Notes under the pieces: generated by a model
What the model was told of the DNA's origin: nothing
Seen by the model: the letters and a program-made list of their open reading frames with translations, nothing else
Database searches by the model: none
Translations under genes and position numbers: made by a program
Assembly (NCBI GenBank): GCA_025353085.1
Contig: JANXRI010000126.1
Location: 1 to 33,008 of the forward strand
DNA length: 33,008 bases
Source: Betaproteobacteria bacterium
GTDB taxonomy: Bacteria > Pseudomonadota > Gammaproteobacteria > Burkholderiales > SG8-41
Reading direction: 5' to 3'
Shown: positions 6,667-24,705 of the stretch, piece after piece
Layout: every line of letters starts with the position of its first letter
How positions within the stretch are numbered: the stretch's first letter is position 1

Positions 6667-6846
6667 AACGCAGAGGACGCGGAGGACGCAGAGGTGCGCA
6701 GAGGTGCGCAGAGGAAAAACGATAACCCGCAAATTAATCAGACTACTCGAAAGACATTAATCAACAAAAATAGGGTGCCATTTCGTGTTTTTTCGGCTAA
6801 CTGCTTTCCTCCGCGTTCCTCTGCGTCCCCTGCGTCCTTCGCGTTA
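6667..6846. repeat. inverted pair of short tandem repeats, locus A (unit about 9-10 bp, ACGCAGAGG type)
   Basis: Left arm 6667-6715: AACGCAGAGG ACGCGGAGG ACGCAGAGG TGCGCAGAGG TGCGCAGAGG. Right arm 6805-6846, reverse complement: AACGCGAAGG ACGCAGGGG ACGCAGAGG AACGCGGAGG AAA. Confidence 0.85.
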
Positions 6847-10799: not shown

Positions 10800-11204
10800 T
10801 TACTGTTGCGCTGCTACCACACGCGGGCGGCGCTCCTTGTCGACAGCAACATAAGTCAGCGTCGCCTCGGTGACTTTTACGATTTCTTCCTTCTCGGGAT
10901 TGCGCTGCGCGTAAACCTCGACGCTGACCGTAATCGAAGTGCGGCCGACCTTGACGATGTCCGCGTAAAAGCTCACCACGTCGCCCACCATTACCGGCTG
11001 CTTGAAGATGAATGAATTGACGGCGACGGTCGCCACGCGACCGCGCGCGCGGCGGATCGCCGGAATGCTGCCCGCGATGTCGACTTGCGACATGACCCAC
11101 CCGCCAAATATATCGCCGCTTGAATTCGAATCGGCCGGCATCGGAACGACGCGTAGCGTTGGATGTTTGTCTGCGGGAAGGACAGTCGGGTGTGCGTCGG
11201 TCAT
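10800..11204 (-). CDS. acyl-CoA thioesterase, hotdog fold (YciA-like)
   Basis: 134 aa; LRVVPMPADSNSSGDIFGGWVMSQVDIAGSIPAIRRARGRVATVAVNSFIFKQPVMVGDVVSFYADIVKVGRTS. Confidence 0.92.
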   Translation of the reverse strand: MTDAHPTVLPADKHPTLRVVPMPADSNSSGDIFGGWVMSQVDIAGSIPAIRRARGRVATVAVNSFIFKQPVMVGDVVSFYADIVKVGRTSITVSVEVYAQRNPEKEEIVKVTEATLTYVAVDKERRPRVVAAQQ

Positions 11205-11218
11205 GGGGGGCAGTGTTT

Positions 11219-11340
11219 AAGGATGAAGGCGGAAGGATGAATTAAAACACTGTGCAGACGACACCGGACCTTAAGGTTTTTTTTCATCCTTCATCCTTCA
11301 TCCTTCATCCTTCATCCTACATCCTACATCCTACATCCTT
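11219..11340. repeat. inverted pair of heptamer tandem repeats, locus B (GGATGAA / TTCATCC)
   Basis: Left arm 11221-11241: GGATGAA GGCGGAA GGATGAA. Right arm 11283-11338: 5x TTCATCC followed by 3x TACATCC, exact 7-bp period. Confidence 0.95.
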
Positions 11341-11347
11341 ACATAAA

Positions 11348-13153
11348 TCAGTGCCCCGAATACATCTGGTCCAGTTCGATCTGAAATTTTTCCATCACGC
11401 GGCTGCGGCGCAATTTGAGCGTCGGGGTGAGGAGGCCGTTTTCCACTGTCCACGGGTCGAGCCCTGCGCGAATGCGACGCACCTCGGCATAGCCGGGGAA
11501 TGTCTTCATCTGGGCCGCGATGCGCGCCAGCAGCAGTTTTTCGGCCCCGCCGTTTTGCAACCCGACGGACTCGGGCTGAATGCCTTGCTCCGCGGCCAGT
11601 TTTTTCCATTGCCCGCGGTTGAGATTGGCCAGCACGCTTAAGTACGGTTTGCCTTCACCGATCAGCATAACCTGTTCGAACAGCGTATCGCGCATGATCG
11701 CTGCCTCAATATCGACCGGCGGTATTTTTTCGCCGTTGGACATAACGATGATTTCCTTGAGACGCCCGGTAATGAACACACGGCCGCCCGCGTCGATGCG
11801 CGCGGTGTCGCCGGTATTGAGCCAGCCGTCGGCGTCGATCAAGGCGCGCGTGGCCTCTGCGTTGTTCAGGTACCCGAGCATCACATTGGGGCCTTTGATC
11901 ATCAGTGCATTCTTGTCGCCGATTTTGATCTCGACACCCGGCACCGCCTTGCCGACGCTCGCGGGCACGTTGTCGTCAGGACTGTTGGCGCAGGCGACGG
12001 GGCTGGTTTCAGTCAGCCCATAACCCTGGATCACGGGCAGGCCAAGCCCGATGAACACGCGCGAAACATCAAGCGACAGCGCGGCGCCGCCGGCAAACGC
12101 GGCCTTCAAACGGCCGCCCAGCCGCGCCATGATTTTGCGCGCCACCAGCGCGTCGAGCAAGGGCCATAGGAGAAAGGCAGGCTGCCAACCGCCACGGCCT
12201 TGCGCATGCTCAAAGCGCGCCCAGCCTGTATCGACGGCAAACTCAAACAGCTTTTTCCGCCATGGCGGACCGTCGTCGAGCTTCGACTTGATCGCGGCAT
12301 AAATGCGCTCGTAAATGCGCGGCACTGAAATAAGCATCGTCGGCCGCAGGCTCTGCAAATCTTCGCCTAGTTGCTGCACTGAGCGCGCGTACGCCGTCGT
12401 CGCGCCGCACATTACCGTTAAGTAATATCCGCAAGTGCGTTCGAACATATGCGACAACGGCAGAAACGACAGCAGCAGATCGATTGAGGTCACCGGCACC
12501 GCTTTGAGGCAGGCTTCCGCATTGGTGAGGATATTGCGATGACTCAGCATCACGCCCTTCGGCCGGCCGGTGGTGCCGGAGGTATACACAATGGTGGCAA
12601 GCGCGTTCGGATCACGTGGCACGTGGCGCGTTGCTTCACCCTCGTCCGGCAGCCATTGTTCGATCGACCTCAAGCGCGGCTCATCAGTCGCGGCCGGCTG
12701 TGCCTCGACTGTCAGCAGGCGCACAAGGCCGCCAAGCTGATCGCGCACGGTCGAAAAAGCTTTCCATTGCTCATGGGTGCCGAGCAAAAGCAGTTTGCAA
12801 TTAGCGTCGTTAAGAATGTACGCAACGTTGTCGCATCGGTCCTGCGTATAGACCGGCACAACGACGAGCCCGAGCCCCATCGCGGCCTGGTCGAAGATCA
12901 CCCACTCCGTTGAATTGCGCAGCATGATGGCGACACGGTCGCCGGCTTTGAGGCCATCGCGCTCGAGCGCCGCCTGCCAGCGCGCCACCTGGCGATCGAT
13001 CTGCGCCCACGTGTAGTCACGCCAATTCGCATGCTGCTGGTTGAAATCGCGATAGGCAACTGTCTCGGGCGTGCGCTTAACGCGCTCGCGAAACAGCCCG
13101 TCGAGCGTGACGGCGTGCGTTGATGTTATGACTTCGCCTGCAGCCGTGGTCAT
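11348..13153 (-). CDS. fadD: AMP-dependent long-chain fatty-acid-CoA ligase
   Basis: 601 aa; YTSGTTGRPKGVMLSHRN, GYGLTETSPV, DGWLNTGDTARIDAGGRVFITGRLKEIIVMSNGEKI. Confidence 0.93.
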   Translation of the reverse strand: MTTAAGEVITSTHAVTLDGLFRERVKRTPETVAYRDFNQQHANWRDYTWAQIDRQVARWQAALERDGLKAGDRVAIMLRNSTEWVIFDQAAMGLGLVVVPVYTQDRCDNVAYILNDANCKLLLLGTHEQWKAFSTVRDQLGGLVRLLTVEAQPAATDEPRLRSIEQWLPDEGEATRHVPRDPNALATIVYTSGTTGRPKGVMLSHRNILTNAEACLKAVPVTSIDLLLSFLPLSHMFERTCGYYLTVMCGATTAYARSVQQLGEDLQSLRPTMLISVPRIYERIYAAIKSKLDDGPPWRKKLFEFAVDTGWARFEHAQGRGGWQPAFLLWPLLDALVARKIMARLGGRLKAAFAGGAALSLDVSRVFIGLGLPVIQGYGLTETSPVACANSPDDNVPASVGKAVPGVEIKIGDKNALMIKGPNVMLGYLNNAEATRALIDADGWLNTGDTARIDAGGRVFITGRLKEIIVMSNGEKIPPVDIEAAIMRDTLFEQVMLIGEGKPYLSVLANLNRGQWKKLAAEQGIQPESVGLQNGGAEKLLLARIAAQMKTFPGYAEVRRIRAGLDPWTVENGLLTPTLKLRRSRVMEKFQIELDQMYSGH

Positions 13154-13998: not shown

Positions 13999-14024
13999 CT
14001 AACTCCCTTCAATCAAAAGCTTTC

Positions 14025-14160
14025 ACCGCAAGGACGCAAAGGACGCTAAGGAAACCAAAATCTAGTCGTCGGCAGATAAATGCAAATATCTTTTCGATTC
14101 GCGTAAATATTTTTTCCGTTGCTCCTGCTTCCCTTTGCGTCCTTCGCGTCCTTGCGGTTC
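14025..14160. repeat. inverted pair of short tandem repeats, locus C (9-bp unit, ACGCAAAGG type)
   Basis: Left arm from 14025: ACCGCAAGG ACGCAAAGG ACGCTAAGG AAA. Right arm 14129-14160, reverse complement: ACCGCAAGG ACGCGAAGG ACGCAAAGG GAA; 27 of 30 positions match. Confidence 0.92.
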
Positions 14161-14165
14161 AATCT

Positions 14166-24583: not shown

Positions 24584-24705
24584 GTGATTGAGTGATTGAG
24601 TGATTGAGTGATTAGGTGATTAGGTGATTCAAGTCTGGCACACGGCTGCTAAATCACTTAATCACTTAATCACTTAATCGCTAAATCACACATCACACAT
24701 CACAC
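24584..24705. repeat. inverted pair of octamer tandem repeats, locus E (GTGATTGA / TTAATCAC)
   Basis: Left arm 24584-24630: 3x GTGATTGA, 2x GTGATTAG, GTGATTC. Right arm 24650-24689, reverse complement: GTGATTTA GCGATTAA GTGATTAA GTGATTAA GTGATTTA; followed by acatcacacatcacacc. Confidence 0.93.

Follow-up and report, generated by a model that had tools for sequence, protein, structure and literature searches.

The spacer between a fadD-like acyl-CoA ligase gene and a thioesterase gene in the analyzed stretch of DNA (33,008 nt, hereafter the window) carries two facing heptamer arrays. We consider these to be, probably, one copy of a dispersed, slippage-prone class of intergenic hairpins, block-replaceable and with at most a generic REP-like effect, rather than a switch dedicated to the thioesterase. 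The observations in favor of this explanation include one-unit changes in array length, whole-spacer replacement, the presence of same-orientation hairpins made of other units at orthologous spacers, the recurrence of the unit in tandem elsewhere in the genome, and the polarity and placement of array hairpins in the family and in other phyla (detailed below). According to the proposed scheme, both arms of such a hairpin would be tandem arrays of one 7–9 nt unit in opposite orientation (here GGATGAA/TTCATCC). The number of units would change by slippage, as seen in relatives, and whole spacers would be replaced by recombination, the probable route of the unit exchange that is observed at orthologous sites. 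The arms occupy spacers running from a gene end to a gene start and lie ~15 nt from each gene; almost without exception, it is the 5' arm that has the G/purine-rich strand. If transcribed, the spacer is predicted to fold into a long intercistronic hairpin that could shift its register (8 units vs. 3), and any resulting effect would most likely be of a generic REP-like nature, i.e., on mRNA stability or on the coupling of the two genes.

Facing arrays in the fadD–thioesterase spacer

The elements of the locus, in the order of the plus-strand coordinates of the window, are as follows.

10800–11204, minus strand: acyl-CoA thioesterase (4HBT), the downstream gene (ORF; 4HBT match 1.9e-16)
11211–11252: further 10-bp inverted repeat around the short arm, CAGTGTTTAA (11211–11220) and TTAAAACACTG (11242–11252), with a one-base bulge (direct reading)
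11219–11241: short facing arm of 3 units, AAGGATGAAGGCGGAAGGATGAA, forming the 3' (pyrimidine) arm on the mRNA strand (sequence, fold)
11242–11282: 41-nt loop separating the arms (sequence)
11283–11338, followed by TT at 11339–11340: 8-unit heptamer array, given in plus-strand reading (sequence, TRF)
11348–13153, minus strand: fadD-like AMP-binding acyl-CoA ligase (ORF; Pfam AMP-binding match 2.7e-79)

By direct reading, the long array consists of five TTCATCC units (11283–11317), three TACATCC units (11318–11338) and the terminal TT (11339–11340), and TRF reports it with a period of 7, 8.3 copies and a score of 95. On the mRNA strand it forms the purine-rich 5' arm (AAGGATGTAGGATG...GGATGAA), and its outer end, CATCC plus TT, corresponds to the phase-locked terminus that TTCATCC arrays share. 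In the short arm, the middle unit deviates (GGCGGAA). The spacer's inverted repeat has a score of 40, whereas dinucleotide-shuffled sequences give 13.2 ± 1.4 (z = 19.6); thus, sequence, TRF and this score all bear out the 8-unit array and facing 3-unit arm described in an earlier note on this DNA. Predicted RNA folds reach −45.6 kcal/mol (z −3.2) for the minus (mRNA) strand and −45.1 kcal/mol (z −4.6) for the plus strand. Both ends of the further inverted repeat are TTAA-like, and it looks as though the short arm had been placed in the center of a palindrome.

The spacer measures 143 nt from the fadD stop codon (TGA, 11350–11348) to the thioesterase ATG (11204–11202), a start supported by aligned N-termini of orthologues. 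The long array was correctly placed close to the fadD stop (at 7 nt, not 8). Its supposed position ~15 nt before the thioesterase start has to be reassigned to the 3-unit arm, which lies 14 nt before the ATG, the 8-unit array being 78 nt upstream of it. This ATG, already noted for its want of an obvious Shine-Dalgarno sequence, has none before it (...ACTGCCCCCCATG). A search of 11150–11420 for intrinsic terminators (G+C-rich stem, short loop, T run) yielded none, a site scan gave no promoter in the spacer, and comparison with known RNA families returned only chance matches to miRNA/snoRNA models, below the gathering score.

Distribution across the genome, the family and other phyla

The source genome is a 3.3-Mb draft in 476 contigs (the window is on C449), in which tandem TTCATCC occurs at six other loci (C161, C249, C260, C282, C376, C412). 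Facing GGATGAA...TTCATCC arms are present at five of these, and C249 has the pyrimidine array only. Neighboring genes include leuS–lptE, udg–hldE, ptsH–ptsI and recN; together with the names of organisms that carry like arrays (Betaproteobacteria RIFCSPLOWO2), they suggest a betaproteobacterium as the source. The loops look unrelated between copies, and the loop at 11242–11282 is, by eye, unlike any of them. The window itself contains further facing-array hairpins with the same purine-first polarity: an 8-mer at 24584–24705 (GTGATTGA/AATCACTT), a 9-mer at 6668–6845 (ACGCAGAGG) and another 9-mer in the spacer 13999–14165. Since hairpins of this type stand between unrelated gene pairs genome-wide, nothing ties the present one to the thioesterase gene.

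Some of these arrays appear to reach into genes. In the leuS–lptE spacer of this genome (L003:988–1233), the start codon of lptE seemingly comes from the purine arm (AGG ATG AAA), as it does in relatives (AAG ATG GAA in L257, AGG GTG AAA in L263). The signal peptide of the lipoprotein likewise seems to be specified in part by the pyrimidine arm (FFILPPSSFRLLVSLALCAMLTACG; FIIHRSSFIVLTAALLLTSCG in L255). The lptE arms within coding sequence use different heptamers (L003 and the relatives L257, L263, L258 and L255). Upstream of hldE in the source genome (L194:14499–14560) there is no in-frame ATG, GTG or TTG between the array and the conserved N-terminus, unlike in the relatives L261 and L253, and the array may have displaced the start codon.

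A survey of 621 spacers from 28 genomes of the family, based on stretches of incomplete genomes with approximate (longest-ORF) gene calls and hand-set thresholds, yielded 39 array hairpins with periods of 7–10. Some contigs of the genome set are perhaps contaminants, and two contigs of G014 (L239, L242) may belong to different strains. The 5' arm was more than half purine in 38 of the 39 (mean 0.70), compared with a 37:19 split among 58 non-periodic control hairpins, and G exceeded C in it by 33:5 (p = 4e-6). Divergent spacers were avoided (2/39 vs. 74/339, p = 0.011), and the arms lay ~15 nt from both neighboring genes. The order of unit variants was not mirrored between the arms (34 hairpins, mean fraction 0.47, null ~0.5), although single hairpins with mirrored order exist, e.g., at lptE in the source genome. 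This observation offers no evidence of selection acting pair by pair on the stem, and fold-back copying of one whole arm into the other, in its simple form, is therefore not supported in general.

Exact TTCATCC arrays occur across many phyla (at least 119 stretches), in a collection that was itself selected by the TTCATCC pattern; the matches listed include Betaproteobacteria RIFCSPLOWO2. TTCATCC arrays are also present in the cultured Chthoniobacter flavus Ellin428 (L131). Among the matches listed, GGATGAA lay only upstream of the array in 61 of 143 cases, only downstream in none, on both sides in 2, and was absent in 80. The outer end, again among the matches listed, reached CATCCTT in 128 of 146 arrays and stopped exactly there in 71; because the arrays mostly reach this point and most often stop at it, we describe their outer ends as phase-locked. 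Three exact units were present in about one-third of the sampled family relatives, in none of 24 order relatives from other families, and in 1 of 149 other genomes of a phylum sample. The TTCATCC unit is, moreover, patchy within the family.

Turnover at orthologous spacers and between close relatives

Among the 27 orthologous fadD–thioesterase spacers measured, five contain strong hairpins, each built of another unit (GGATGAA, GGATGAG, GTGACGCA, GAACGAT and GAATGAT). Two contain weaker hairpins, five contain single-sided arrays, and no clear array is evident in the remainder, several of which have the two genes 0–2 nt apart, leaving no spacer. With units varying or arrays absent at orthologous sites, the hairpin is no conserved regulator of the thioesterase gene. 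The role in thioesterase translation that the earlier note had envisaged thus finds no support, the orthologous spacers being variable or empty and the same hairpin type flanking unrelated genes. At seven other hairpin sites of the source genome, followed in five relatives, most orthologous spacers bear array hairpins. The unit there is commonly a different one; the purine arm follows the stop codon, and the pyrimidine arm precedes the next start. At fadJ–thiolase, for instance, the 9-mer GGACGCAGA has drifted to GGACGCGAA and GGACGCAAA in congeners, and G014 and G024 have heptamers in its place. In the ptsH–ptsI spacer of G024 (L245), an uninterrupted GATCCTT array of more than 100 nt lies directly upstream of ptsI.

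Turnover at close range can be followed between the relatives G016 and G068, which share ~97.5% identity across ~52 kb of alignment. Only six indels separate them there. Two of the six amount to one heptamer each in a TTCATCC array (4 vs. 3 units), and one of these is the only gap in a 1,584-base alignment with 99.4% identity. Accordingly, two of the three orthologous TTCATCC arrays in this pair differ by one heptamer, and the third by substitutions only. Unit-number slippage is thereby shown for TTCATCC in these relatives, and the copy-number instability and recent amplification proposed from the sequence of the window are real for this type of array. Block replacement of an array spacer is likewise shown, in one case: a spacer of G016 with a CGTGATC-type array hairpin (L280:1297–1533) has a wholly different sequence in G068 (L348), and since the adjoining gene end differs too, recombination is pointed to.

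Candidate drivers of array abundance did not separate the genomes accordingly. Y1 transposase genes were absent from the array-bearing G013, G014, G023 and G071 and present in G002, G021, G069 and G073; a RAYT/Y1 transposase as the driver was rejected, its presence not tracking array-rich genomes. Loss of mismatch repair was rejected with mutS present in most array-rich genomes (mutS1 was not found in the incomplete drafts of the source genome and its nearest relative, G005). SbcD (TIGR00619) was found in none of 60 family genomes (the source genome and 59 others) vs. 8 of 14 control genomes; as SbcD is absent from rich and poor genomes alike, loss of SbcCD was rejected as the driver and is at most permissive. 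Thus, with SbcD absent everywhere and mutS mostly present, neither feature distinguishes array-rich from array-poor genomes.

Competing explanations and known repeat systems

A possible, if doubtful, alternative is a selected intercistronic or 3'-end RNA hairpin of free sequence, shielding upstream mRNA ends or limiting read-through. The maintenance of facing arms while the unit changes at orthologous spacers and the avoidance of divergent spacers are as such a hairpin would have it, but many relatives lack any hairpin at the fadD–thioesterase site, the variant order is unmirrored, and no terminator-like site is present. A mobile non-autonomous hairpin with defined termini, moved in trans (REP/RAYT-, MITE- or IS200/IS605-like), appears unlikely. 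It would fit the unit, polarity and phase-locked termini shared across many phyla among the matches listed, as well as the patchy occurrence of three exact units (many family relatives, 0/24 and 1/149); yet neither loops nor flanks agree between copies, the copies read in the source genome show no target-site duplication by eye, Y1 transposase does not follow array-rich genomes, and the unit type differs at orthologous sites. Phase-variable translational control, whereby unit number would set the hairpin register and hence ribosome access to the thioesterase start, is less credible again. Its attraction lies in an array beside a start codon devoid of a Shine-Dalgarno sequence and in the varying TTCATCC unit number of relatives' arrays. 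However, the arm adjoining this start is the short one and not the variable array, most orthologous spacers have no array, a single-sided one or other units, and like structures stand between unrelated genes. Least plausible of all, and quite improbable in our estimate, is recognition of the array units by a regulatory RNA-binding protein (CsrA, S1 or Csp), by analogy with the proposal made for the TAACTGA repeats of Beggiatoaceae. Every unit of the 5' arm contains GGA, and a precedent hypothesis exists (PMC4679880), but units at orthologous sites include ones devoid of GGA (GTGATTG, GAACGAT, GAATGAT), and in the predicted fold the GGA motif is mostly paired.

The preferred reading, a dispersed slippage-prone hairpin class, has its own difficulty: phase-locked outer ends and a polarity fixed across phyla exceed what free slippage predicts. 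We therefore also entertain, as a rather unlikely extension, a single cross-phylum system with few 7–9 nt units, purine-first polarity and phase-locked termini, in which some process would install matching arrays at both ends of gene-end-to-gene-start spacers and could swap the unit type. Should a trans-acting process make the hairpins, intergenic evolution in many uncultured phyla would have a driver not seen before; otherwise, the value of the hairpins lies in the natural record they keep of slippage and spacer recombination.

Among the papers covered, a literature search by repeat sequence gave no match for the TTCATCC array or the sister repeats searched for in a bacterial context. Intergenic heptamer arrays have been described before from a small number of genera. 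Long simple sequence repeats with units of 5–11 nt, heptamers being the commonest long-unit class, were described by Mrazek et al. (2007; cited in PMC4679880 and PMC4692102), with slippage proposed. Variation of unit number between close relatives, the mark of phase-variable repeats, was found for TTCATCC in G016/G068; facing arms, polarity and phase-locked ends set the present arrays apart from the Mrazek repeats as cited. REP/BIME palindromes are likewise extragenic and occur in aligned and convergent spacers, but the arms here are tandem arrays, the loops are long and unrelated, and Y1 transposase does not track their presence. Neither of the REP tags named in the title of PMC3733652 (GTAG and CGTC) was found by direct reading at the outer ends (11205–11218 and 11341–11347). 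Assignment to MITEs is contradicted by the unrelated loops and by the lack, by eye, of target-site duplications at copies in the source genome. The TAACTGA direct repeats of Beggiatoaceae (MacGregor, 2015; PMC4679880), with one indirect case and a proposed role in translational regulation, resemble our arrays in being heptamers dispersed intergenically near start codons, patchy across phyla and without a gene-function pattern, and differ in unit and in that facing arms are common here.

Overall, the closest description is that of Rehm et al. (2015; PMC4692102), who reported G-rich intergenic heptamers in Xanthomonas and Nostoc (GGGAATC / GGGGA(C/T)T) with G-quadruplex potential and a preference for four units. 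Architecture and polarity match: a 7-nt tandem unit in non-coding DNA, as single arrays or inverted pairs, the G-rich strand nearest the 5' ORF (at this locus and in 38/39 family hairpins), under-representation between divergent ORFs, length variation between relatives, and occurrence beside genes of all classes. The unit differs, GGATGAA/GGATGTA having only two-G runs and no GGG quadruplex unit; the array is therefore of the same kind as the Rehm heptamers but not of the same repeat family. Many other units are, furthermore, used within one family here, and unit type is replaced at orthologous sites. What the present analysis adds to such descriptions is a testable rule, comprising polarity, phase-locked ends, exchange of the unit type between orthologous spacers and indels of a single heptamer between close relatives, along with the indication from the lptE start and signal peptide that such repeats can enter coding sequence.
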